Shown piece by piece: positions 22,310 to 45,760 of a stretch of 64,000 nucleotides of DNA. The position numbers and the translations under genes were made by a program. The notes under the pieces are model-generated. The model was not told where the DNA came from, did no database searches, and saw only the letters and a list, made by a program, of their open reading frames with translations. How positions within the stretch are numbered: position 1 is the stretch's first letter; every line of letters begins with the position of its first letter. The stretch is from positions 57,974,501-58,038,500 of the forward strand of contig CM027381.1 in NCBI GenBank assembly GCA_015680905.1. The letters run 5' to 3'. The stretch comes from Coptis chinensis (taxonomy: Eukaryota; Streptophyta; Magnoliopsida; Ranunculales; Ranunculaceae).

Positions 22310-22968
22310 TGAACATTGATTGCTTATACCCACAATAGGTATGAATAATGATTGTTCATACCTATCCATGTATGAACAATAGCTATGAACATTGATTGTT
22401 CATACCCCCAATTATGAACATTAGCTATGAACAATGAATGTTCATACCTATTTGAGCTATGAACAAGCATTGCTCATACTTATCCAGTTATGAACATTGA
22501 TTGTTCATACCTACAATAGGTATGAACATTAATTGTTCATACCTATCCATGTTGAACATCAGCTATGAACATTGATTGTGGCTATGAAAACATGAACCAA
22601 AAACAGATATGAACAATAAATGTTCATACCCCAAATTATGAACAATAGGTATGAACAAAACAGATATGAACATTGATTGTTCATACCTTCTTTAGGTATC
22701 CAAAAAAACATAAACCTAAAACAGATATGAACATTGATTGTTCATACCCAAAACATATATGAACAATCAATGTTCATACATATATGAACATTGATTGTTC
22801 ATATATGTGTTTAAAAAAATATGAACCCAAAATAGATATGAATATTGATTGTTCATACCCAAAATATATATGAACAATAAATATTCATACCCAAAACAGA
22901 CATGAACATTGATTGTTCATACCCAAAACATATATGAACAATAAATGTTCATACCCAAAACATATATG
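22310..22968. repeat. Palindromic minisatellite, left part
   Basis: Repeats of TATGAACATTGATTGTTCATA and variants, joined by spacers such as CCCAAAACA. Each unit is itself an inverted repeat (TATGAACAAT...ATTGTTCATA), so the array can fold into many small hairpins. It continues at 29755 after a Copia insertion. Confidence 0.85.
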
Positions 22969-24783: not shown

Positions 24784-26145
24784 TTAGTCCTTTTCGTGTA
24801 CTTCAAGATATGTTTTACCTTGATCCGTGCCTTTGTCACGGGTTCTTCCGATATCGCTAACCATGCCAACGGAAAAGCGGATGTCTAGCCTCGTCATAGC
24901 ATGGCGTACATTAAAGCTTCCCACGGTAGAAGCATAAGGAACCGCTTTCATGTCCTCTATCTCTTTTGGTGTCATGGGACACATATCCTTTGATAGAGGA
25001 ACTCCATGCTTGAAAGGCAAGAAACCTTTCTTGGAGTTTTGCATGTTAGAACGAGTCAACACAGCATCAATATAGGTAGCCTGAGATAAGCACAACATCT
25101 TTTTCTTGCGATCTCTTATAATTTTGATCCCAAGGATGTGACCTGCTTCTCCCAAGTCATTCATATCAAATAGTTTGGATAACCATACCCTTATGTCTGT
25201 CAACACTTTCACATTATTTCCAATGAGTAAGATGTCATCTACATAAAGCATAAGAATTACCACTATGTTTCCATCAAATATCTTGTACAAAACAAGATGC
25301 TCTTGACCTTTTTCAATGAATTCTTCTGGTTGCTCCATATAGATGGTTTCCTCAAGACTTCCATTAAGGAAAACTATTTTGACATCCATTTTATAGACCC
25401 ACTTACATCCAATGGGTTTTATACCATTGGGTGGCTCTACAAGCTCCCAGATATGATCAGAATCCATAGATTCCATCTCAGAATTCATTGCCTTTTGCCA
25501 AGATATTACATCTCTATCTTGGAGTGCTTCATTATAGGTCCAGGGATCAGGATATTGGTTATCAGTGGTTATGTCTAAAGACATTCCCAAACCAATCATC
25601 TATATGGTTGTCTAACAACCCTCCCACTACGACGAAGCACCTCTTATTCTTGTACGTCATTTGTGACACGTTGTGGTTCCTATTCTTGTATAATTGGTAC
25701 TGAAGTAGTTTAATGTCTCTCCTCTCAATACTTCTAGAATAATACTACTCTGGGTAAAATTTAATGCACTGCGAGTGGAATAAGATTAATGATGTATAAA
25801 TTGCCTTCTAATGTACCAGAACAGATAAAAAGTTTATTTTTCTTAATGACAATCTTGTCATTTAAAAGAAACAGAATATCCATCCTTAATTAACATAGAA
25901 ACTGAAATCAAGTTCTTTCTAAAATTAGGCACATAAAGACAATTCTTTAACACCTTAGTCTTATTTCTACCAAAAGATAAATAAACATCTCCCCACTCGC
26001 AATGACTACTTTTTTTCAGAAGCATCCCCAAAGATATGACAATCTCTCCAGCACTAAGTTTTCTGGTTTCCTGGAACCTCTGCAACGAAATGCAGACATG
26101 GTTAGTCGTTCCCGTATCTACACACCAGGTTCTGGTAGATAACAT
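24784..26145 (-). pseudogene. Copia B pol remnant: protease and RT, integrase deleted
   Basis: The protease (25858-26145) retains WCVDTGTTNHVC and a CLYVPNFRKNLISVS motif. RT (24784-25599) starts at the NEALQDRDVISWQKAMNSEM region and keeps the YVDDI active site near 25230-25245. Conserved RT blocks are missing on both sides of MDVKIVFLNGSLEETIYMEQ. No integrase lies between protease and RT. RNase H is barely recognisable to the left of 24784. Confidence 0.88.
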
Positions 26146-28484: not shown

Positions 28485-29754
28485 TGTAGGAACTGTTATT
28501 TTCAGAACGAATATTTCTACAAACCGCGAGAACCCACACACAGCGGAATCAATGGGGTTCATGGTTTTGGATAGAAACATACCTTTTAGATCCGGTTTAG
28601 ATAACTCTAAGAATCTAAGCTTTATGAATCCGAATCAACAATCAACCCCTTGATCTTTTGTTGTATTCCTTTAGAACAGATTGGACGTTGTGTGGGCAAC
28701 GATCTACCAATCTCTTTCTTTCTCACAAAGCTAGATCCAATTTTGGATCTATCTTTCCTTGCCTCTTTTTCTAATCCAGATGAATAGTGAATAGGTTAAT
28801 TTTGGCCAAAGAGAAGAATGATTATATTTATAGGCTACAACAGGGACCATGAGGAGAAATTAGGGTTGGGCCTCCTGACGGGCTTGGGCTTTCCATGTTC
28901 GCCCAGAACACACGGCCCAAGTCTGTCAACAAATGGCTTATTCCACTAAAGGCCATTTTTGCACTACCTCCCTAATCCCAAATTACATGTCAGTGTTTAT
29001 GGGCACCATATTATATGCTCGTTGATCTCCCTGTATTTAAGATATCGAATGTCCATTGATTAAGTCAAGTTACTGACAACTATATTAATCAACTTCTTAT
29101 GTCCTTGAGTAGTACCACTCAACCTCATTGTCATGTCGAAATAAATCCACCTGCAGGATTTACATGACAATCTTTTTGAGCTCCTCAAGGGAACATCATC
29201 AACCCGACTTCCTGCGGGTCATGGATTCCTTTTATAATCAACAACACACCTTACATACAATGTCATTATCCAATCTATCGAGTTTATTGACTCATAAATG
29301 AATCTCACTCATTGATGATTTAAAGCAATGTACAATCCACGTAAGTGCCCGTTATGATATCCGGATTAAGAGGACAAGCATCCATAATAACAGAGGCGTT
29401 TGTTCTCTTATACAGTCAGTATAAAGAGAAAAAACCTCACTTGGTTCTGTTCAATACACACAAAGTGTACTAGTGTAATCCTATAGTCAAGATAGACTAA
29501 TACCATATTATACTACAACCGTACCAATGGTTTGTCCAAATCCATCTAGGTTGTGAACGATTACTTATACTTTATAAGGTATTGATGATATGATCTTACA
29601 TAGTTCAAGATCATGTACAACATAAAGTATTAGACACATGCATATAACTAATAACATATATAATATGCATAACATTTGCCCATATGATTCTCATTCAAAA
29701 AATGAGGAATTAGAGTTAATACAAAAGTAATACTTTTAGTATATAACCCTATCA
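28485..29754 (-). repeat. 5' LTR of Copia B (about 1.27 kb)
   Basis: Second copy of the LTR; the primer binding site sits beside it at 28472-28482. Confidence 0.94.
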
Positions 29755-30200
29755 ATATGAACATTGATTGTTCATACCTTCTTTAGGTATGAACAATCCG
29801 TGTTCATACGCAAAAAAAATGAACCCAAAATAGATATGAACATTGATTGTTCATACCCAAAACAAACATGAACAATAAATGTTCATACCCAAAACATATA
29901 TGAATATTGATTGTTCATATATGTTTTTTTAAAAAAACATGAACCCAAAACAAATATGAACATTGATTGTTCATACCCAAAATATATATGAACAATAAAT
30001 GTTCATACCAAAAACATATCTGAACATTGATTGTTCATACCCAAAACAGATATGAAAAATACTTGTTCATACTAACAAAAACAGATGAACCCAAAGCAGA
30101 TATGAACAATAAATGTTTATACCAAAAACAGATATGAACAATACGTGTTCATACTTAAAGTAGGTATGAACAATACATGTTCAACAGTAAAAAATGAATA
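29755..30200. repeat. Palindromic minisatellite, right part
   Basis: Continuation of the TATGAACA...TGTTCATA array cut by Copia B. It fades into AATAATCATTG sequence just before the tRNA-like feature. Confidence 0.85.
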
Positions 30201-30231
30201 ATCATTGTTTGATTAACATTAAAATGTTAGA

Positions 30232-31320: not shown

Positions 31321-31609
31321 AACTAGTGGAAATATGTACACATAAACCTCAACAAGCAAGTAGAACGGTGTAGTGTTTTGGGTTGAGGCAAACAAATAGT
31401 AATAAGTTGATTGATATGATTTCAAAATGGTGCAAAGTTCCTTATTTCGAATTAGGGAGCCAACTTCACAAATCATGAATTAATAAATCAAAATGTGTTT
31501 CTCGATCATTAAACTTTTAGAATAGATTATACTAGATTTTGGACCCCCATACGCCCAGGATCTATTAAATATTTTGTGTGTTAAAAAGGCTTTACAAAAT
31601 GTCTAACAC

Positions 31610-32270
31610 AAATTTTCAAATTAGAATATATTTTTATTGAAAATAAACCAAAATACGTTAATGACCAGCGATTATGGTGCATAAGTACTTGGAAACTAAG
31701 GAACAAATTAAGATAGTCTCTTCACTTTGTGGTTTATGATATTAATCCGTAATTTTCAAATGGAATTATCTTAAACTCGATCTAGATTTTATAATAGTTT
31801 TCTTATATTTATGGTGATTTAGCGGCAAATTTTCGAATCAGAATATATTTTTATTGAAAATAAAATGAAATACGTTAATGAGCAGCGATTATAGTGCATA
31901 AGTACTTGGAAACTAAGAGATCAAATTGAGATAGCCTATTCATTTTGTGGTTTAGGATATTAATCTGTAATTTTCAAATAGAATTATCTTAAACTCGATC
32001 TAGCTTGTATAATAGTTTTATTAGATTTATGATGATTTAGCAGCAAATTTTGGAATCAAAATATATTTTTATTGAAAATAAACCGAAATACGTTAATGTG
32101 CAGCAATTATGGTGCATAAGTACTTGGAAACTAAGTGATCAAATTGAGATAGCCTCTTCACTTTGTGGTTTAGAATATTAATCCGTAATTTTCAAATGGA
32201 ATTATCTTAAACTCGATCTAGCTTGTATAATAGTTTTATTAGATTTATGGTGATTTAGCGGTAAATCATC
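31610..32270. repeat. Tandem repeat, three copies of about 218 bp
   Basis: The block AATATATTTTTATTGAAAAT, then TACGTTAATG, GCATAAGTACTTGGAAACTA and TTATCTTAAACTCGATCTAG, recurs three times with starts near 31624, 31841 and 32059. The copies differ at scattered positions. No reading frame is preserved. Confidence 0.8.
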
Positions 32271-32379
32271 ACCGTTCGGCTTACGTACTAATATGTACAA
32301 ATCACTAAAATAGACTGATTGTTTCTATATCCTCAAAGAATATACTACTCTCACTTAAAAATATTTATCATAGGAACAT

Positions 32380-32801
32380 TGTATTCACCACAAATTACAC
32401 TACTGATCTCCCTAGTCTCTCACTCACTCTCTAGTCACTCTTTTTCTTTTTTTCTCCCCTCTTTCTTTCTCACTACTGTTCCTTTTTATATCACCCCTCC
32501 TTCTCTCTCATCCCTTGATCTTTCTCCCATCCTCTGGTCCACCTCCACACACCTGTCCTCTTAGGGTTTCGCATCCCTGCTCTAATACTCCCCGTTCCTT
32601 TTCCCTTACGCTACCTTTTCTTTGACTCTGACCACTCTTCTCTCACATGCTTCTGTACCACTCTGCTCTCACATGCTTTTGTACGACCTGACCCCCATTA
32701 TAGTGCCACGGCCTCGATCCGGTGTTTCACGCCTCCCCTTTCTTACTCTACTTCGGGCCAGCGGACATGCCACCTTAGTGGTCACGAAATATGCTAATAC
32801 A
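32380..32801 (-). repeat. 3' LTR of Tat element 1 (422 bp)
   Basis: TG...CA ends; matches 42105-42501 with small indels and scattered substitutions. Confidence 0.93.
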
Positions 32802-33440
32802 GATGCCCCCTCTCGGCCCTCGGATCCGATTGGGTCCACGGGCTGAGATTTGCCAACTAACCCCTTGTGGTGTTGTCCCATCCTGGGGTCTGTCGCTTGC
32901 TTTTGAAACATCACTTCATCTGACATCCCTATTCTCACGCCCGTTCTGAACCTCGCGTCATTGAACACGTGTCTCATAGCACATGCCTCTCAGCGCATGC
33001 GTCACCACCTTTACCTCTTCAAGTTTCGTGTGACCACGTGTCTCTTCTTGGGTGGTCCTTTTCTTTGCTTTTCACGCTTTTACCCCTGCCTCTTCGAATC
33101 CCGCCCAAAATAAAACTCTTTGCTCACTCATTTCGTCTCCCTACCTCAAAGCTTTGTCTCTCCAGTTCAAAAACTTGTCTTCCCTTTCTAGCACCCACAG
33201 TTCCCATATCTTCCCTTCCTTTCTCTCCGGTGAACCTTTCTTCTCTCTTGCTCCCGTTCCACAATAGATCACCGTCCGGTTTTTGCTTCTCCCTGAACAA
33301 GTTTGTACTTTCCCTTATTTTCCGTTTATAGTGCATTTCTGTTTGAATGCGTTTGTTTCTCTTCCGGCTGTTCACCTTCCCCTTCATCGAATGCTCTTTG
33401 TAATCCAAGACCCATTTTGTCTTTGAACATTGATTTCACC

Positions 33441-35690
33441 ATGTCTGACTCCCCTTCTGGTGGCTCCTCCGCTACTAGATCTGCCGGATCTGGGGCTTCG
33501 TCCCCCATATCTACTGGCTCCCCTGCCCAATCTAAATCTTTTGGACCCACCGCAGACCGGTCGGAGTCCCCTTCTTTGGGGCCCACTCGTTCATTCCCCG
33601 TCCCCTCCACCTCGGGGAGACCTTCTATGCTTCCTCCTTCCCCTCTCGTTATTGCAGGCCTAACTTGGTTGCCGTTCAAGCTGCTTACGGCATCCCGGAG
33701 GACGTGATTCTAGAACATGTACCGGGTGTCACCCACTTTCCTCACCTTGTACCACCACGGCCCGGGTTTTTAGTAGCCACTGTGGGGCAAATTGCCACTG
33801 GACTCCGCTTCCCCCTATCCCTACTGGACGTTGAAGTCTGCAATCACTTCAACATCCTACCGTGTCAAGGTATCGACAACTTCTGGCAAATCATGTATGC
33901 CGCTAATTACTACAACAAAACGAATATCCCGTGGATTGGCCTGCATGACATCACGACTCATTACTTCATAAAGAAGAGTACCAAACTGGGGAGCATAGGG
34001 TATCAGTCATTTTGGGTGCGTCCGCAGAAGAAGTCTTTCGTTATCCGCATCACCTCCTCTGACAAAGTGTGGCACCATTACCCTCCGTATGTGTCTGGGA
34101 ATTTCCTTTCCACGGATCTTCCCCCCGAACTATCTTTGAGACACTCCCATTTCATTGATCGCAGTGAGTGTAGTTAGCTGCTCTGTTTGCCCTTGGGATG
34201 ATCCCTTTCTTAATGCGTCTACTTTTTTATGTTTCAGGTTGGGCCCTAGACTTACACTCCCAAGTATATGCCGGTGTCTCCTCTGAGATTTTCAACAGAC
34301 TTCGCGGCCTAGGAGACAGCCAGTGTGACATTCTCAGCATCAACCCTAACAAAGGCAGCCCGCTCCTTCTAGATCCTTCCCTTAAAGATATCGGAAAGTA
34401 CTGCGGTCCTTTATACCTTCTTCCGCTACCCAAGGAGAGGAAATCCAAACTGTCTCCCCCCAAAAGCCGGCGAGCGAAGCGCCCGGTTCATCGGTCCTTC
34501 GGGTATACCACCAAAATCTCTCATAGTCAAGCTCTCGCACAGAAGGCCGTTGCTTCCCAGACTCGTGAGGCCCCCATTAGCTCTCCAGCGACTATTCCTG
34601 ATCCTGTCCCCAGATCCTATTCTTCCATAGCTGATTGGGAGGACGACTTTGCTCCCCCCCCTGACATGGACGTCTCCAAACTTAGGCTTTGGGAGAATGA
34701 TTCAGATGGTGAGGCCCCCTCCACTGCCGCAGCCAAGGGCCCTCTTGCCAAGAAGGCCAATACCACTGCCTCTACCACCAACGCTCCTACCTCTCGGTCC
34801 ACTTCACTGCGGCCTGTAGCCCCACCACGCCGCTACGAGAAGGAGGCAGTCCCCATCGGTCCCCTGTCCGTGGGGCCAGTAGAACTCTGGCACCCCCAAT
34901 TTAAGCCTAGGGACCGGTATATCACCACTCGGGACTCCGCACTGGACAATCCAATGGTGGCCGCCTCCCTGTTCTTCAGCTCCCATCTCCCTAGGGACCA
35001 AGCTTACGGGGACTCTGGCTCATATGCCTCCCACCAGGCTGCTATCTACACCGGATGGGAGAGGGTACGTCTTCCCCGCTTTTTCCCTTTCCTTCGTTAC
35101 TGCTCAACTCTTCCTAACTTTGTCTCCTTTTCCAGCTGAGCCTTGACGTGGGCTATGTTATCTGCGGCCTCACCAATACCCTGGATGCCCTCGAAACTGT
35201 AAAGACGGAGATCCACAGACCAGAGGGGTGGAAGGCAAGGTATGCTCAGTTGGAGGTGGAGAGAAACAAAGACCGCCTCGCAGCCATCAAACATCACAAG
35301 GAGCTTCAATGTGCAGAGCAAGCTCACCAGGACTACGTGGCTGGCGTCACTCCTCAACTGGAGTGTCAGAGGGAGTCGGATAGGACTGCGGCCAAGGCTG
35401 ACCTTGAACAATCACTGAAGGACGTAGCAGAACACTTCAAAGCCTTGGCCTCCAAAAAGATAGCCCAGGAGCTGAAGCAACAATTAGAAGCCCTCACCGC
35501 AGTTGGACGTCTTCTCCCTTACCAGCCCCCTGCTACCGCCCCTCCTGATTCCGCGGTCACCTCCCCTGCTCTGGGCCCGGAGGCTGTTGTCCATTCTGCC
35601 ATGTCAAACTCTCCTATAGATGTGGATGAAACTACTGAGGTGGTGGAGGAGGATCAACTGCCAGTGGAGGCCTCGGAAGATCCCAAGTGA
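33441..35690 (+). CDS. Antisense, intron-containing gene of Tat element 1 (PF04195-like domain plus coiled coil)
   Basis: It lies opposite to gag-pol, between integrase and 3' LTR. The likely start is ATG 33441 with a Ser/Pro-rich leader. The frame changes near 33657, where TTATTGCAG could be an acceptor, though a frameshift is equally possible. Exons 33658-34163, 34238-35064 and 35136-35690 join in phase through introns with GTGAGT...TTTCAG and GTACGT...TTCCAG. The core reads RPGFLVATVGQIATGLRFPL, LDVEVCNHFNILPC and YVSGNF, resembling the 'putative gypsy type transposon' domain (PF04195-like). A proline/serine-rich middle follows, then a charged, alpha-helical C-terminus (VERNKDRLAAIKHHKELQ) likely to form a coiled coil. 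The total is about 700 residues. The three exons from 33658 have no stop, unlike gag-pol. A related gene lies at 61700-63932. Function unknown. Confidence 0.72.
34164..34237 (+). other. Intron of the antisense gene (element 1)
   Basis: Donor GTGAGT, acceptor TTTATGTTTCAG, 74 bp. Translation through it would stop at TAG within four codons, while removal keeps the frame (phase 1). Confidence 0.7.
35065..35135 (+). other. Second intron of the antisense gene (element 1)
   Basis: Donor AGG/GTACGT, acceptor CTCCTTTTCCAG, 71 bp, phase 0. Unspliced, the frame ends at the TGA right after the acceptor. Confidence 0.7.
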
Positions 35691-35959
35691 CGTTTGTTTG
35701 TGTTTAGCTTTGGATGTTTATCCATCTGTTATGCAATTCTGATAACTCAAGTTTTTGTTATAACTCGCGGTCCTGGATTTTTGGGTAGTCCCAGTAGGTC
35801 GCAGGGGAACTTATTTCTTGTCAACCACTTTGCCCATGGTTAATCTTGGTGATAATTGTATCTCTTCTTGTGTAGTGCGTGCCGCTCTATCCATACTTGC
35901 TGGCTTCTTTGCACCACACAGGCATTTGCCAAACCTACACGTTCACCCAACGCTGCCTG

Positions 35960-36480
35960 GGCCACTCAGCGGGCCCCAAGTCGATAGGGGAGATGTTGAG
36001 GGCCACTCAGCTTGCCCCCAAGTTGACTTAGGAGATGTTGAGGGCTGTTGAGTATGCCCGGGCAACTCAGCTTGCCCTCAAGTTGACCGTGGAGATGTTG
36101 AGGGCCGCTAAGCATGCCCGGGCCACTCAGCTTGCCCCCAAGTTGACCGTGGAGAGGTTGAGGGCCGCTGAGTATGCCCGGGCCACTCAACTTGCCCCCA
36201 AGTTGACTTAGGAGATGTTGAAGGCCGCTGAGTATGCCCGGGCCACTCAGCTTGCCCCCAAGTTGACTTAGGAGATATTGAGGGCCGCTAAGTATGCCCG
36301 GGCCACTCAGCTTGCCCCCAAGTTGATCGTGGAGATGTTGAGGGTTGCTGAGTATGCCCAGGCTACTCAGCTGGCCCCCAAGTTGACTTAGGAGATGTTG
36401 AGGGCCGCTGAGTATGCCCGGGCCACTCAGCTTGCCCCCAAGTTGACTGTGGAGATGTTGAGGGCCGCTGAGTATGCCCC
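35960..36480. repeat. 60-bp tandem repeat between antisense gene and pol (Tat element 1)
   Basis: Eight full units run in exact 60-bp register from 36001 to 36480, after a partial unit. The core is GGCCACTCAGCTTGCCCCCA, then AAGTTGAC and GGAGATGTTGAGGGCCGCTG. Because 60 is a multiple of three, a minus-strand frame stays open and gives an artefactual Gly/Leu-rich repeat protein. Tandem repeats in this position are known from Tat/Ogre elements. Confidence 0.92.
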
Positions 36481-36676
36481 CAAGCTGACATTCGAACTCG
36501 GGACCCATCGTCTGTTGCCTTTGGCCTAATCCACACATAAATGAATACACACACATCAGATGGAAGAAGTTTGATATTGCTTTCATTGACATATTAGCTA
36601 ATTCAAAATACCATTACAAGACTTGAATGAAGCAAATACACTTTTCTTTAATTGAAAAAGGAAACTAATGACTAAG

Positions 36677-39600
36677 TTACTCATGAAATTCCTTCAACAT
36701 CCGGATGTTCCAAGGCCGCTTGATGTTCTCCCCTTGGGGCGTCTGCAACCTGTAGGTCCCGGACGTTTCAGCCTCCATCACGGTATATGGTCCCTCCCAG
36801 TTGGGACCCAACTTCCCGTCTATCTCCTCCTTGGTGGCCGGGGTCACCCTCCGAAGCACACAATCACCCACATTGAATTTCTGCGGCTTCACACGCTTGT
36901 TATACTGTCTCTGGAATCTCCTATGGTACTCTTCTAGTTTAATGTGCGCGGTGTCTCTCCTTTCCTCTGTAAGGTTCAACTCCCCAGCCAATATCTTCTC
37001 ATTAACTCTTGCTTCCACGACTTTGGTTCTAGTTGTTGACGCCATCATCTCCACGGGAATCACTGCCTCCACGCCATAGGCCATCATGAACGGGGATTCT
37101 CCTGTAGATGTTCCCAGTGTAGTGCAGTATGCCCACATTAGATGGTGTAACTCATCCGCCCAACATCCCTTGCGTTTCTCCAGCTTTTTCTTTAGATTAT
37201 CCATGATCACTTTGTTTGACGACTCTGCCTGCCCATTCCCCTCTGGATTGTAAGGGGCTGAAAAACCTTGCTTCACTTTGTAGGCTTGGAGGAAAGCTTC
37301 TCACTTTCCCTCCTGTGAACTGGGTACCATTGTCCGCATTGATGGTGTGTGGTAGTCCAAATCTACATATGATATTCTCCCATAAGAACTTCCTTACCTG
37401 CTCCTCCTTCACCTGCTGCAGAGCCACCCTCAACCCATTTCGTAAAATAATCAGTCGCGGCTAGCATGAACCTCTTTTTGCCGCTGGCCATGGGTAGAGG
37501 TCCGACGACATCCAACGCCCACATAGCAAACGACCATGGGCTGAAAACCTTGTGCAGTGGTTCTGCAGGTGCGTGTATCAGCAGTACAAAGGTCTGGCAT
37601 TTCCTGCACCTCTTGGCATACTCGGTCGCATTTCTCTTCATGTGGGGCCAAAAGTACCCCTGTGATAGTAGTCGGTGAACAGTTGTCCTTCCTGCCGAGT
37701 GGCTTCCACAATCTCCTTTGTGAACTTCTCCCAACACCTCTTGCACCTTTTGCGGTCCCAGGCATTTCAGGAGCGGCCCACTGACACTCTGCCGATATAA
37801 CTCCCCATCCAGCAGAACGTATCTCTGTGTCATCTATTCCATCCTCCTCCTTTCACCCTTGTCCTCTACTTCTATCCCTGAAAGGAAACTCTTGATGGGT
37901 TCCACCCATCTAGGCTCTTGCTCAGTGGTTAGCCATACCCCCTTGTCCTATGCGGTGCTTGGTTTGCTTAGCACCCTGACTTCAATGGATCTACCTTCTG
38001 TCCCAGGGAGTACCGCGAAAATGTATGCCAAGGCGTCGGCGTGTCTATTCTCTCCCCGGCCCAGATGAGCAAAACTGATTTTCTCAAAGTTGTCGACCTT
38101 CCGCCGTAATACCTCCAGGTATTTCGCCATCCTAGGACATCGGGCTACTAACCCTCCATTGACCTGGCATACCACCAAGTTCGAATCAGAATATACTATC
38201 AACTCTTGCACACCCAGATCCCTGGCCAAATCCAACCCTGCTATCACTGCCTCATATTCAGACTCATTATTCGAAGCAGTGAAGCCCAGCTTCATTGATA
38301 ACTCTAGGCGAGTATTCTCGGGGGTGACCAGCACCACCCCGATCCCATTACCCGTGTCGGTAGTAGACCCGTCTGTGAAGACTCTCCATCCATTTCACAT
38401 GTCCCAAGGGTCATGGTGTTGGTCCACCTCTTGTTCCATGACCATCTCCTCCCCCCAGGTAGGGTCCTCGGTTGGAAACTCGGCCAGAAATTCCGCCATT
38501 GCCTGGGCCTTCTCCGTGGTTTTGGTTTGATACTCAATGTCATACGAACTAAGCAGCACAGCCTATTTCAACATTCTCCCTGATTTCTCTGCTTTCAGAG
38601 CCTGCTTGAGTGGCAAGTTGGTCACCACTACCACCGAATGAGCATCAAAATAGGGTTTCCACTTGAGTGCAGAGAAGACCAGAGCCAAGGCATATTTTTC
38701 AATCCTAGTATATCTTGTTTCGCCGTCCAACATTGTTTTGCTCTGGAAGTACACCGGCCTCTCTGCCTTGTCCACCATCCTTATCAACACTGAACTAATT
38801 GCACACTCTGACACCCCTAGGTATAAATACAGCTTCTCCCCCTGCCCTGGCCGCGATAGGATTGGGGCCTTGCCCAAATATTCTTTCAACTCTTGGAAAG
38901 CCCTTTCACATGCCTCGGTCTACTAAAAGTCAGTCGTCCTCCTTAATAGTAGGTAGAAGGGTCAGCACTTATTCGAGGACTTGGATATAAACCTATTGAG
39001 TGCTGCGACCCTACCAGCCAGCCTCTGAACCTCCTTCAAGTTATGCAGAGATGCCATTTCCAACAAAGCCTTTATCTGGTCCGGGTTTGCTTCTATTTCG
39101 CGGTATGTGACTATGTACCCCAGGAACTTTCTGGAAGTCACCCCAAATGTACACTTTTCTGGATTCAGCATTAGTTTGTGTCTCTGCAGTATAGAGAATG
39201 TCTCCTTTAGCCCTGCCAAATGCTCCTCTTCAGTCATACTCTTTTCCACCATGTCATCTATATAGATCTCCATCCTCTTTCGGATTTTACTCTCAAACAT
39301 CTTCTCCCCCACTCTCTGAAATGTTGCCCCCGCATTCTTTAAACCAAAAGGCATTATGGTGTAACAGTACGGCCCCCCTTCCACTATGAATGTTGTCTTT
39401 TCTTGGTCCGGGCTGTACATCACCACCTGATTGTAGCCCATGGACGCGTCCATGAATGAAAAGAACTTATACTCCGCGGTTCGGTCCACCAACTCATCTA
39501 TCCGCGGCATCGGGTAACAATCCTTTGGACATTCCTTGTTGACATCTGTGAAATCCATGCACATTCTTACTTTCCCATTCTTTTTCGGTACCACTACCAC

Positions 39601-42160
39601 GTTTGACAGCCACTCAGTAAACTTGCATTCGCGGATGATACCCGCATCTTTAAATTTCTTCACCTCCTATCGAATTCCTTGCGCATACTGCGGCTTCGTA
39701 CCCCTCATTTTCTGCTGGACTGGGCGAGCACCTTCCCGCATATGCAATCTATGACACGCGAACTCTGGATCCAATCCTGCCAAATCCTCGATTGTCCATG
39801 CAAATACATCGTTATTTTCAGTTAACAAGGCAATCAATTTCACTTTCCAATCTTCGGACAAACTTGTCCCCACATTCACAAACTTCTCCTCCTCTGCCAC
39901 CCCGATGCTCACGACCTCAATCTTGCCCATTGTCTTTCCCCCAATGAGCGACTTCTTCTCTCTGGCCGCGGTCTGTAATTGCTATGCTAGCCTGTCCCCT
40001 GTCTCCGACGCCTCTTTCCCAGGTGTGCGGCTGAGACCCCTCGTTGTCACTTGGTGGATGTTCTGTGCTGCTACCTGATCACCCCTTATCTCGTACGTTC
40101 CTCCATTTGTCGGGAAGCGGATCACTTGGTAATAAGTATACGGAATTGCCTTCATTTCATGAATCTATTTTCTTCCCAGGATCGCGTTGTATTGCGAGTT
40201 AGTGTCCACTACCATGAACCGGGTGAAAATGGTCACTGGCCCCGCGGTCACCGATAGTATGATTTCCCCTAATGGCTCAATCATGTTGTCGTTGAATCCG
40301 AACAAGTTAGTCTGAGGGGGCTTCATCTGCTCCCTTCCTATGCCCATTTCCTCCATTGCGCTTTGAAATAGCAAATCCACTGAACTTCCGCAGTCTATCA
40401 ACACCCTTTTCACCATGTAGTTCCCCATCGCTATAGTAATCACCAGTGCATCTTCATGGGGCGAGCTCACCGACCCCAGATCTTTTGGAGTGAACTATAT
40501 CCTGTCATTTCCCTTGCCCCTTCCTGGAACTGGCCGTGGACCGCTCACAACCTCATTGATCTGCTGCAGAATGGCTGTCATCCTCACCTTATCTTGGTTG
40601 GCGTTCCTTCCCAGCGTTTCACCACTGAAAATAACATTTATAATGCCTAGGATTCTAGCCGCGGTAGGGGCCTTTTCGATCAGCTGCACTTCCTTAACAA
40701 ACTCCTTCAGATGTCCTTTCCTAATCATTCTCTCCACTAACCATTGCAAAGCAAAGCACCCATTGGTTGCATGATTTCTGACCTGATGATACGCATAAAA
40801 TGGCTTTCCCTCTAGTTCCTTAGGTGAGCTCCGCGACTATACATAATGCGGCTGTCCCTTGATCAGTGGCAGGATTTCCTCTAACGGCTTATTCAGCGGA
40901 GTTGGATCTATTTCTCGATAAGGTTTTCTCTCCCTGTGTTCTCTTCGGGATTGTTCTCTGCCTCTCTTCATTCTCTGTGTCTCCCTTTGGTAGGTTCCCC
41001 CATCTCTTGCTGCGGCCCTATCCCTATCTCTCCTGTCCTCTGCGGCCATGGCGTGCACTGACTTGTCAGGTTTCTTGTGTTCTTTACTATTCCTCTATAA
41101 AATGTCCTCGTATCTAATGTATCTTTCTACCTTCAGGTACAAAGCATGCAAGGTGGTAACTTTGATCTTAGATACCGATTCATGCACTCTGGTTCTCTGC
41201 TTCAATCCATGCTGGAACGCTATAATCGTGGTGCGCTCATCCAAATTTTCCACCCTCAGCATCTCTTCCTTAAACCTGCATAAGAAGTCTTTGAGTGTCT
41301 CGGCGGACTTCTGCTTGACATTAAAGAGGTCCGCTATATCTACTACCCTATTTCTCTGATGGATGAAGTGATTTACAAAAGCTTGCTCCAGCTCCTAGAA
41401 CTGTTGTATACTCCGCGACGCCAACCGATAATACCAGTCGGATGCTCCTCCTTCCAGACTGGCAGGAAACATCATACAACGGAGGCCATCATACTTTGCC
41501 TTTTGCCACAGCGGCATCTGTTGCCTGAAGTGATGCAAATGGTCCGCTGGATCTCCTTTTCCATCGTACCTTTCAAACTGCGGCTGAGTGAATCTCTTGG
41601 GTACCTCAGAATTCTAGATAGAGTCATCAAGTGGATTTTGATTCAGGCTGTCCACCACCTTCTTAGTCGTGCCCTGTTTCTCCTTTTCCACCGTGCGGTT
41701 AGCCTCTCTGTCTCTTTTAATCATTGCCTGCACCATTTCCATGGTAATGCCTCCTGCATTGTCCGCCCTGGGTTCTTGATGAAGTTCCTCGCTTTGTCCT
41801 TCCACTTCACTACCCGCGGGTACTGCTGTTTCCGCTGCCCCCTGAGGGTCTTCTCTTTCCCTCCTCAACTCATCATTCTCTTCTCTAAGTCTACCTACCT
41901 ACTCTTGAAGCAACCTAGTCTCCTCAACCACCGAACCCTCAACCTCCTCTTCCCCTATCTCTATGTTTTCCATGCTCGTCGTTTCATTCTGAATAGCCTC
42001 CACCCTCCTAGGTCTTCCTCTTCCCCTCTTAGCTGGAGCATGTTCTGCAACTTTCCCTTCTTCCCAGATCGTGGAGTAATCTCGTTCCCACAGACAGCGC
42101 CAAATGTATTCACCACAAATTACACTACTGATCTCCTTAGTCTCTCACTCACTCTCTAGT
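36677..42160 (-). pseudogene. Decayed Tat gag-pol polyprotein (element 1)
   Basis: One frame can be followed from about 42050 to 37440. Gag has an AT-hook-like KRGRGRPRR and a core with DWYYRLASRSIQQF near 41420. Protease (40165-40470) has VLIDCGSSVDLL. RT (38962-39663) has YIDDM near 39250. RNase H is at 38563-38889, and the archaeal-type second RNase H at 37948-38395 has FTDGS and VYSDSNLVV. Integrase runs 36677-37833, with HHCC region CRKCQ, LDVVGPL and NGQAESSN. In-frame stops are TAG at 41899, 41614, 41395, 41095, 40837, 40495, 40165, 39982, 39667, 38923, 38920, 38563, 37948 and 37834, and TGA at 38962 and 38395 (lowest coordinate given). Two frameshifts, near 37433 and 37300, break integrase. 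No TAA was found. Confidence 0.92.
42088..42104 (-). other. Primer binding site of Tat element 1
   Basis: TTTGGCGCTGTCTGTGGG on the minus strand directly after the 5' LTR, of the TGGCGCYGTCTGTGGG type seen in Tat-like elements. Confidence 0.75.
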
Positions 42161-42501
42161 CACTTTTTTTTCTCTTTTTCTCCCCTCTTTTTTTCTCAAT
42201 ACTGTTCCTTTTTATATCACCCCTCCTTCTCTCTCATCCCTTGATCTTTCTCCCATCCTCTAGTCCACCTCCACACACCTGTCCTCTTAGGGTTTCACAG
42301 CCTTGCTCTAGTATTCCCTGTTCCTTTTCCCTTACGCTGCCTTTTCTTTGACTTTGACCACTCTGCTCTCACATGCTTCTGTACGGCCTGACCCCTATTA
42401 CAGTGTCGCGGCCTCGATCTGGTGTTTCGCACCTCTGCTTTCTTACTTTACTTCGGGCCAGCGGACATACCACCTTAGTGGTCACGAAATATGCTAATAC
42501 A
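42105..42501 (-). repeat. 5' LTR of Tat element 1 (397 bp)
   Basis: Second LTR copy, next to the primer binding site. The two copies differ at many scattered sites. Confidence 0.93.
42207..42216 (-). promoter_or_regulatory. TATA box of Tat element 1 5' LTR
   Basis: TATAAAAAGG on the minus strand in the 5' LTR, conserved in the other LTR. It would start the gag-pol transcript. Confidence 0.55.
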
Positions 42502-42879
42502 AACGTGTTCTACGAACGGGTGTCATTATATTAAATTATTCCAAAAAATAGTAGCAACTATGCATAGCCATGAGATATGAAAATTATATTAATTACTCAT
42601 TTAAATTTCTTGCACCACTCTCTATAAAAAGGAAGCACCAAACCTTGATAAAACTCATCGACTTCTTTTTATTGTTAGGTTTAATAATAAAAGTTTGATT
42701 GAAGTTTTGTGAGAATGCCCAATGTGGCGAAGATAATATTGAAGCTACTTGAATAGTAAGGCATTCCCAATCACAATAAAAGAATTATAATAAACACTAC
42801 TTAAAATGCAAAACTATATTTGTCGAGACATTTATTCCCCCTACATATAATACAAATATGTTTTAGGGTTATTAGTTCA

Positions 42880-44300
42880 ATGCATTTGCATCAAGTTTTT
42901 GATTTTCCATTAATTATTCTTTGAGGTTAGTTTAATGTAGTGTGTTGCATCCAGTTTCCAATTTCTCATTAATTATTCTTTGAGGTTAGTTCAATGCAGT
43001 TGCATCAAATTTTTGATTTCCCGTTAATTATTATTTGAGGTTAGTTCAGTGCAATTGCATCCACTTTATGATTTCCTGTTAGTTATTCATTGAGGTTAAT
43101 TCAGTACAGTTGCATCCAGTTTTTTATGTTTCCTTAATTAGTATTTGAGATTAGTTCATTGCATTTGCATCCAAGTTCCAATCCCCCGTTAATTACTCTT
43201 TGAGGTTAGTTCAATACATTTGCATCCAGTTTCTGATTTCCCATTAATTGTTTTTCTAGGTTAGTTCGATAGTTTACAATTTCTATACAGTTTGCATACA
43301 TGTAAGAGTCTGTTTTTATAAACTCACTTTCATTTTGGGTTCCTAATTACTCGTAATTACTCATGTAAGAAGGCTAAAAAAGTGGACATTTATGTTTTGA
43401 GGATAATGCGATGCAGTTACATTCGACTTCCGATTTTTAGTTAACTATTTTTTGAGGTTATTTCAATGCATTTGCATCCAATTTCTGATTTTCCATTAGT
43501 TAATCTCTGATTTTAGTTTAATACAGTTGCATCCAATTTTTAGTTTTCAGTTAATTATTCTTTGATGTTAGTTCAATGCAGTTGCATCCAATTTCTGATT
43601 TTATGTTAATTGTTCTTTGATGTTAGTTCAATGTATTTGCATCAAGTTTTCGATTTTCCGTTAATTATTTTTTGAGGTTAGTTCAATGCAGTTACATCAA
43701 ATTTATAATTTCCCGTTAATTATTTATTTTGGTTAGTTCAGTACAGTTTCATCCATTTTTCAATGTTTCGTTAATTAGTCTTTAAGATTAGTTCACTGCA
43801 TTTGGATCAAATTTCCGATTTCCCGTTAATAACTCTTTAAGGTTAGTTTAATACATCTGCATCTAGTTTCTAATTATTTATGCTTTGAGGTTAGTTCGAT
43901 ACAATTATATCTAGTTTCTGATTTCCTGTTAACTATTCTTTGAGGTTATTTCAATGTATTTGCATTTAGTTTCCGATTTCCCACCAATTATTCTATGAGG
44001 TTAGTTCAATGCAGTTGCATTCGGTATTTTATTTTCTATTAATTATTTTTTGAGTTAAATTCAATGTATTTGTATCCAGTTTCTGGTTTCTCATTAATTA
44101 TTATTTGGGGTTTGTTTTATGTATTTGCATACCATTTCGGATTTTCGGTTAAATATTTTTCAAAGATTTGCATCTAATTTCCAATTTCCTATTAGTTACT
44201 CTCTGTCGTTAGTTTAATGCAATTTGTATAAAGTTTCTGATTTCCAGTTAATTACTCTTTAAGCTTAGTTATGTATTTGAATCTAGTTTCCGATTTCCTT
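42880..44300. repeat. Minisatellite array 1 (GTTAGTTCAATGCATTTGCATC type)
   Basis: Degenerate units of about 55-60 bp with the core GGTTAGTTCAATGCAGTTGC, ATCCAGTTTC, GATTTCCCGTTAATTATTCT. More than 20 copies with frequent point changes. Confidence 0.85.
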
Positions 44301-44829
44301 TTAATTATCCAATGTGATGTGTAATATCAACTTCTACTGATCCATCTGTAGTGTCCTTGCAAACATGACATAAAAAATAAATTATACTTAATTTACTATG
44401 TGGGATCATCGAAGATTATCCAGTTCCCAATTTCCCGTTAATTATTCTTTAAATTATGCATGACTCACTATGTGGAATCTTCAAAGATTATCTACGAATG
44501 GGTGTTGTTATATTCATTATTCTGAAAAATATTTGTAAATATGTAGAATTATTATATATTAATATTATATTGATCACTCAACCAAATTTCTTATAACGTG
44601 AAAACCTCACTCTCCATTAAAAAAAAAACTCACCTTCGCGTCAACTTCATTTTGTTGTTTAATAATAGAAATATGATTGACGTTTTGTGAGATTGCCTAA
44701 TAAGGCGAAGTTCATATATATTGAAGCTACTTGAATAGCAAGGAGTTCACAATTATACAGAAAGAGATAAGATAAACACAATTTTAAATGCAAAACTATA
44801 CTTATCGAGACAATCCCATAACATATAAT

Positions 44830-45760
44830 CAACTATTTTTTGAGCTTAGTTTAAAGCATTTGCATCAAGTTTCTGATTTTTCGTTATTTATATTTTGAGG
44901 TTAGTTCAATGCAGTTGCATCCAATTTCCAATTCCCGTTATTTATTTTTTGAGATCAGTTCAATATAGTTGCATCCAGCTTCTGATTTCTCGTTAATTAT
45001 TCTTTTCGGTTAGTTCAATACATTTGCATCTAATTTCCAATTTTCTGTTAATTGTTCTTTGATGTCAGTTCAATGCATTTGCATCCAGTTTCTGATTTCC
45101 TGTTAATTATTTTGTGAGATTAGTTTAATGCATTTGCATCCAGTTTCCGATTTCTCATTTATTATTTGAAAAAGTTGCATTTGCATCTAATTTTTGATTT
45201 TCCGTTAATTATTGTTTGAGGTTAGTTCAATGAATTTGCATCCAACTTCCGATTTCCCGTTAATTATTTCTTGAGGTTTTGCATCCAGTTTATTTTTTGA
45301 GATTAGTTCAGTGCAATTGCATTCGGTTTCCGATTTCTCGTTAATTATTTTTTAAGATTAGTTCCACGTATTTGCATTATGTTTCCAATTTATAATTAAT
45401 TTTTCTTTGAGGTTAGTTCAATGCAGTTGCATCAAGTTTCTGATTTCCCGTTAATTTAAACTTTGAGGGTTAGCTCAATGCATTTGCATCCAGTTTCCGA
45501 TTTTCCTACAATTTTTTTTTTTATGTTAGTTTGATGTATTTGCATCCAAGTTTTGATTTTCCGTTAATTATTCTTTGAGGTTCGTTTAATGCAGTTGTAT
45601 ACATATTTTGATTTTCTATTAATTACTTTTTAAGATTAGTTTAATGCTTGCATTTGCATCCAGTTTCTGATTTTCCGTTAAATATTATTTGAAGTTAGTT
45701 TGGTGCATTTGCATCCAGTTTTCAGTTCCCCATTAATTTTTTTTTTTTTTTATGTTAGTT
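44830..45760. repeat. Minisatellite array 2
   Basis: Same unit as the array at 42880-44300, in the first half of Helitron B. It matches 48540-49480 copy by copy, showing that the two arrays descend from one ancestor. Confidence 0.85.

Follow-up and report, generated by a model that had tools for sequence, protein, structure and literature searches.

Introns are expected to vanish from elements that copy themselves through RNA. Plant LTR elements are generally without them, and a December 2025 review names Ogre and EVADE as notable exceptions (PMC12786077); in both, the spliceosomal introns lie in the sense transcript (PMC6317226, PMC12786077). The accessible text of a survey of Retand elements reports antisense TRP28 (PF04195) and Smc-like ORFs together with tandem arrays, the latter in about half of the recently active elements, and DNA binding is predicted there for TRP28 (Vicient 2025, PMC11963269). 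Gene23 of the maize element Grande, as described in a 2020 review of additional ORFs, is likewise antisense and located between pol and the 3' LTR, has its own upstream promoter and encodes a nuclear product; the same review called for attention to antisense and spliced transcripts (PMC7264820). The antisense gene HBZ of HTLV-1, like that of other deltaretroviruses, encodes a regulator, and spliced antisense transcripts are reported for this group (PMC8622228).

We analyzed a stretch of 64,000 nucleotides from Coptis chinensis (the window; contig CM027381.1, positions 57,974,501 to 58,038,500, forward strand). It contains an LTR element that resembles those of the Retand survey in its POL-3'LTR region of ~3.9 kb with antisense coding sequence, its tandem array and a coiled-coil-like protein part (there Smc-like); it appears to differ in having one gene of three exons with two conserved introns, and a core that falls short of PF04195 (PMC11963269). 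The position and orientation of the gene are those of Grande gene23 (PMC7264820). With HBZ it shares being an antisense gene of a retroelement (PMC8622228), a likeness of logic for which we claim no sequence relationship, and in HTLV the promoter for antisense transcription is located in the 3' LTR (PMC7264820), whereas the conserved block described below lies inside the element. Unlike the introns of Ogre and EVADE, those of the window belong to an antisense gene. The prior sequence-only reading had noted that extra and antisense ORFs occur in Tat elements, as the TRP28 and Smc-like ORFs of Retand bear out (PMC11963269, PMC7264820). Antisense TRP28 ORFs are thus already known, and the presence of two conserved introns in such a gene appears to be new: neither the main text of the Retand survey (PMC11963269) nor the accessible text of the 2020 review (PMC7264820) contains a word beginning with "intron", and we found no report of introns in antisense Retand genes in the literature searched, outside of which Gomez-Orte 2013, Steinbauerova 2011 and Kejnovsky 2006 could hold one.

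The Retand-type element and its antisense gene

The minus strand of the window at 32380-42501 holds one decayed Retand-type (Tat) Ty3/gypsy LTR retrotransposon, with the antisense gene on the plus strand. The features are as follows.

42502..42506 and 32375..32379, no strand: flanks AACGT and AACAT, a candidate 5-bp target-site duplication with one mismatch
42105..42501, minus: 5' LTR, 397 bp, TG..CA
42085..42102, minus: primer-binding-site-like sequence (TGGCGC...) adjoining the inner side of the 5' LTR
41098..41394, minus: gag piece (Retrotrans_gag), Pfam match
38965..39666, minus: reverse transcriptase (RVT_1), Pfam match
38566..38919, minus: RNase H-like domain of the reverse transcriptase, Pfam match
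37951..38394, minus: second RNase H (RVT_3/RNase_H) between RH and INT, Pfam match
37366..37833, minus: integrase zinc-binding region (Integrase_H2C2), Pfam match
36680..37300, minus: integrase C-terminal part, rve_3 and SH3-like matches, both under their cut-offs
35940..36539, no strand: array of 60-bp tandem repeats that separates the antisense gene from pol
35136..35690, plus: exon 3, with three long helices predicted (coiled-coil-like), an acidic tail and a TGA stop
35065..35135, plus: intron 2, 71 nt, GTACGT..TTCCAG, phase 0
34238..35064, plus: exon 2, with a basic NLS-like cluster and an SSIADWEDDFA motif
34426..34494, plus: the basic cluster (KERKSKLSPPKSRRAKRP), candidate nuclear localization signal, K/R positions mostly kept in 7 aligned sequences
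34164..34237, plus: intron 1, 74 nt, GTGAGT..TTTCAG, phase 1
33441..34163, plus: exon 1, ATG at 33441, Ser-rich start followed by the TRP28-like core (33659-34162), broken in the window copy
33078..33110, plus: candidate core promoter for the antisense gene, a conserved block with CCCGCC that precedes the ATG by ~330 bp
32802..32820, minus: purine-rich, polypurine-tract-like sequence adjoining the inner side of the 3' LTR, well kept in copies
32380..32801, minus: 3' LTR, 422 bp, TG..CA

The two LTRs differ by a K2P distance of 0.0728. The frequency of the primer-binding-site pattern is at chance level, and we dropped it as evidence. On the minus strand the domains follow in the order gag, RVT_1, RNase H of the reverse transcriptase, RVT_3/RNase_H and Integrase_H2C2; gag-pol is decayed, since its stop-free pieces are short and spread over three frames. 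LTR lengths and an internal part of 9,303 bp are inside the Retand size ranges (LTR 315-1,194 bp, internal 7,380-12,869 bp; PMC11963269). The region from 36680 to 32802 (~3.9 kb), which includes the antisense gene, agrees with a Retand POL-3'LTR region of 2,933-6,566 bp with antisense coding sequence (PMC11963269). The second RNase H (aRH) between RH and INT on the minus strand is found in Retand, and is a mark of both Ogre and Retand (PMC6317226); the assignment to Retand and not Ogre would rest on the type of the gene and its orientation.

The surroundings of the element are rich in repeats. Long arrays of a 55-bp tandem unit lie just outside the 5' LTR (42834-45760), with more copies near 47.7 kb, and three head-to-tail copies of a 218-bp unit (31609-32354) adjoin the outer side of the 3' LTR. 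Repeated ATGAACA..TGTTCATAC units are present at two places of the window (29754-30217 and 22310-22968). An ORF on the minus strand (24784-25599) resembles a Ty1/copia reverse transcriptase fragment, an assignment which we presume from its motif.

The gene had been placed antisense to gag-pol, between integrase and the 3' LTR, and this is what we find: it is on the plus strand, with the integrase at 36680-37833 and the 3' LTR at 32380-32801. In 5 of 5 other copies with the integrase end in the fetched stretch (L002, L004, L005, L008, and L024), integrase is again on the strand opposite to the gene. The two short introns proposed likewise hold: the first has its donor after 34163 and its acceptor before 34238, the second after 35064 and before 35136, and both have GT..AG boundaries. 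The T content of intron 1 is 0.45, compared with 0.19-0.27 in the exons. Open stretches on the plus strand extend over 33536-34177, 34174-35139 and 35118-35690; the three exon frames all differ, and therefore both introns must be removed to obtain one continuous frame.

The claim that one frame runs over three exons from 33441 fails in the window copy, where the ATG is out of frame with the exon 1 core; exons 2 and 3 are open. The ATG frame ends at a stop at 33705-33707, and the core is open from 33536 in another frame; over its 723 nt, exon 1 has 7 stops in the ATG frame. Among 32 other complete copies, the commonest exon 1 length is 724 nt (8 of 32), which is also the length in L009, the nearest copy to the window in the tree. 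Exon 1 length fits phase 1 in 14 of the 32, and the other two phases in 9 and 9, so many copies are broken in the exon 1 frame. We infer that the frame is broken in the window copy as well. An extra intron linking the ATG piece to the core has 11 formal GT..AG solutions in the window; we rejected it because the 724-nt exon 1 of 8 of the 32 copies fits one continuous exon and a broken frame is simpler. All three exon frames are open, with both introns GT-AG, in 1 of the 33 complete sequences including the window (L018).

Conservation of introns and coding sequence among copies

Copies were taken from the window's own genome (935,630,033 bases in 116 contigs). A DNA search gave at least 45 matches, 72 to 100% identical (40 of 1518 candidates scored), and a protein search scored 150 of 5433 candidates, the matches listed being at least 72% identical. 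We fetched 38 further copies and aligned them with the window, and inspected another 22. The homologue of the ATG at 33441 is present in 37 of 37 copies with letters there and a stop in 31 of 34. The splice dinucleotides are present at donor 1 in 34 of 38 copies (L042, which has no intron 1 region, is scored as a miss), at acceptor 1 in 32 of 38, at donor 2 in 29 of 33 and at acceptor 2 in 33 of 36, and positions +2 to +6 of donor 1 are unchanged in 36 to 38 of 38. For comparison, GT and AG dinucleotides over the whole gene have a median retention of 0.69 and 0.71; those at the splice sites lie above this median without being outstanding (ranks 20 and 25 of 95, 32 and 18 of 127). Splice-site columns have fewer changes than other intron columns (mean 1.67 versus 2.69, permutation P 0.019). 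The retention of ATG, stop and splice sites in diverged copies, together with the coding constraint in the proposed exon frames, goes beyond chance.

The 22 further copies gave the same picture. All 22 have the intron 1 donor where it is expected, one of them off by a base. Exon 2 was recognized in 20 of the 22, with an adjoining AG in 18 of these 20, the exceptions being L085 (acceptor altered) and L083 (deletion at the junction). We located intron 2 in 18 of the 22; in three of these (L061, L065, and L091) it does not end in AG. In L089-L092, intron 1 is by eye unrelated to that of the window, yet exon ends and phase agree. The L089 intron 1 measures 78 nt; as this divides by three and holds no in-frame stop, its retention would leave the frame open, unlike that of the usual 74-nt introns. 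With the exceptions given for single copies, GT..AG boundaries are conserved and the inner sequence drifts, as in spliceosomal introns, and both introns are found at the same place and in the same phase across the inspected subfamilies, in nearly all copies aligned or inspected.

Copies without introns were sought with exact junction patterns, which diverged intron-less copies would escape. A degenerate pattern of the exon 1|intron 1 donor junction matches at 103 places of the genome (places, not confirmed copies) versus 6 for a reversed control, and the second donor junction at 54 versus 0. The pattern of the exon 1 end joined to exon 2 gave 3 matches versus 2 in the control, that is, chance level; two of the three were fetched and contain no homologue of the gene, and the third is identical over the 22 bases to one of these two. 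The spliced pattern of junction 2 gave no match in the genome or control. The patterns thus revealed no exact intron-less copy, a result also expected if the introns were never spliced. Long open frames of up to 599 aa had raised the suspicion of intron-less subfamilies, but both copies fetched to check this, L089 and L090, keep intron 1. The proposal that antisense orientation protects the introns fits this census (103 and 54 donor junctions against 3, at chance, and 0 spliced ones).

We estimated coding constraint from pairwise dN/dS among 31 sequences including the window (465 pairs, of which 445, 456, and 454 are usable for exon 1 core, exon 2, and exon 3). Median values are 0.10, 0.19, and 0.21, respectively; the closest pairs give 0.42, 0.78, and 0.56, and the deepest pairs 0.08, 0.17, and 0.19. 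Wrong-frame controls are at 1.37, 1.63, 1.17, 1.40, 0.88, and 1.47. Values near 1 across copies, together with introns that are not conserved, had been named beforehand as an outcome that would refute the reading; the deepest pairs and the constant intron places are the opposite. The pattern is what post-insertion decay combined with selection in the active lineage would give. Changes per site at codon positions 1, 2, and 3, counted on a tree of 33 sequences, are 1.62, 1.25, and 3.09 for the exon 1 core, 1.88, 1.75, and 3.39 for exon 2, and 3.26, 2.54, and 4.45 for exon 3, and the introns have 2.23 and 2.91. The Ser-rich 5' stretch has little codon-position pattern (2.63, 2.20, 2.80), which speaks against strong constraint there. 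Judged by these substitution patterns, the antisense sequence is a coding gene under purifying selection in the active lineage.

Upstream of the gene, CCCGC is found within the block at 33078-33110 in 16 of 25 sequences, distant copies included, versus ~0.04 expected per block. A TATA-like AATAAAA beside the block is present in closer copies only. We consider the block a candidate promoter.

Relationship of the predicted protein to PF04195 (Transposase_28)

The core had been called PF04195-like, and a Pfam HMM search of the translated exons had been proposed as a check. That search returned no match for the window exons even at E≤5, and PF04195 is absent among the Pfam matches for 8 core sequences; a CBM_3 match in 3 of the 8 (best E 0.037) was taken as chance. 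The likeness survives in a more remote form. At least 17 other loci of the genome are over the PF04195 cut-off (150 of 1296 candidates scored), and one of these, L052, aligns with the exon 1 core (A1) at an hhalign probability of 97.8% (E 1.1e-12, 32% identity over 111 columns); a second locus, L051, aligns more weakly (52.7%, E 1.4e-4). The core, itself short of the curated PF04195 cut-off, is thus a remote homologue of a PF04195-positive protein.

L052 has a candidate phase 1 intron just past the domain, and joining across it leaves 343 codons open, with other choices of GT available. A candidate phase 1 intron is at the same place in L051 (76 nt) and in L054, a further PF04195-positive relative, a weak case in which the L051 frame stops 7 codons past the junction. 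L050 and L056 are without this intron motif, and L049 combines the donor with a changed acceptor. Intron 1 may have an older origin. The 1,500 bp beside L051 contain no match to the gag and pol pieces of the window.

The aligned core gave no match in the PDB at E≤10, and a structure predicted from the window sequence alone was unusable (pLDDT 31.5). For exon 3, single-sequence prediction places helices at residues 2-26, 29-68, and 76-124 with a mean pLDDT of 68. Scans of IMG/VR found no relative.

Alternative explanations and wider meaning

We regard it as probable that the locus is a Retand-type element with a real three-exon antisense accessory gene, which has its own promoter, is spliced twice and keeps its introns by its antisense orientation. 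The observation in the sequence-only reading is in this sense partly confirmed and its interpretation supported. Transcription would start from a promoter upstream of 33441, where the conserved block is found, and two splicing events, to which sites, frames and constraint point, would yield a product of ~700 residues with a Ser-rich start, a TRP28-like core, a basic NLS-like cluster and a coiled-coil-like tail. The genomic RNA that is reverse-transcribed would carry the complement of the introns, unread by the spliceosome, and the introns would persist, consistent with the lack of intron-less copies. Their retention would need no special device, because the genomic RNA holds their reverse complement.

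By analogy with HBZ, the product may act in the nucleus, associate with itself, bind DNA or chromatin and regulate transcription of the element that encodes it, a role to which we give slightly less than an even chance. We find it rather unlikely that the protein of the same spliced gene acts in the replication cycle, for example in import of the pre-integration complex or in the choice of integration site. The basic cluster and the coiled-coil-like tail would fit a nuclear adaptor, and nuclear entry of the pre-integration complex is discussed in the review of additional ORFs (PMC7264820), but the core has no Pfam or PDB match pointing there, and nothing in our results separates such a role from that of a regulator.

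It is improbable that the locus holds three separate antisense ORFs that are never spliced, the apparent introns being spacers. The Retand survey counts its 104 antisense ORFs separately (PMC11963269), and an absence of intron-less copies would follow here too. Separate starts are conceivable in part of the sequences: 12 of 33, including the window, have an in-frame ATG in intron 1 that reads into exon 2, and in 10 of 33 exon 3 starts with ATG, which weakens an argument we had considered, that exons 2 and 3 cannot start alone. These counts therefore raise the standing of the unspliced reading a little and lower that of a spliced gene. However, the possible starts are missing in 21 of 33 sequences for exon 2 and 23 of 33 for exon 3, and an ATG in intron 2 opening into exon 3 is found in 0 of 33. 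Separate starts are not conserved, in contrast to the intron boundaries and to the ATG at 33441; boundaries and phase stay constant in the inspected subfamilies while intron length and sequence drift, and +2 to +6 of donor 1 are kept in nearly every copy.

A host gene captured with its introns by one element in recent time is very improbable. The introns, and the distant relative L052, whose candidate intron agrees in place and phase, could suggest a cellular origin, but any capture must be old, since the gene is a member of a very large repeat family (5433 candidates, 150 scored) diverged to 72% DNA identity; TRP28 ORFs are moreover found in Retand of eudicots and monocots (PMC11963269). It is likewise very improbable that the element makes functional use of the antisense RNA and not of the protein (for silencing or control through dsRNA, with incidental frames): silencing by antisense transcripts is discussed for LTR elements (PMC7264820), but the low deepest-pair dN/dS, confined to the exon frames, and the codon-position pattern require selection on protein. 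An RNA role in addition to the protein may exist.

If the spliced antisense gene is taken as the working explanation, a broader proposal follows, which we put forward tentatively and hold to be somewhat short of an even chance. Antisense TRP28 genes of Retand elements may generally be ancient and intron-containing, their introns predating the diversification of the family and having survived very many rounds of RNA copying on the strand that the genomic RNA does not express. The TRP28 and Smc/coiled-coil ORFs would then be united as one spliced nuclear regulator, and retroelements could hold stable spliceosomal introns if the gene is antisense. In intron-marked retrotransposition reporters, the intron is oriented so that it can be spliced out of the genomic RNA; a large gene family that keeps two introns would be their natural mirror image. 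Annotation would change as well, as ORF surveys would split such a gene and under-call its protein.
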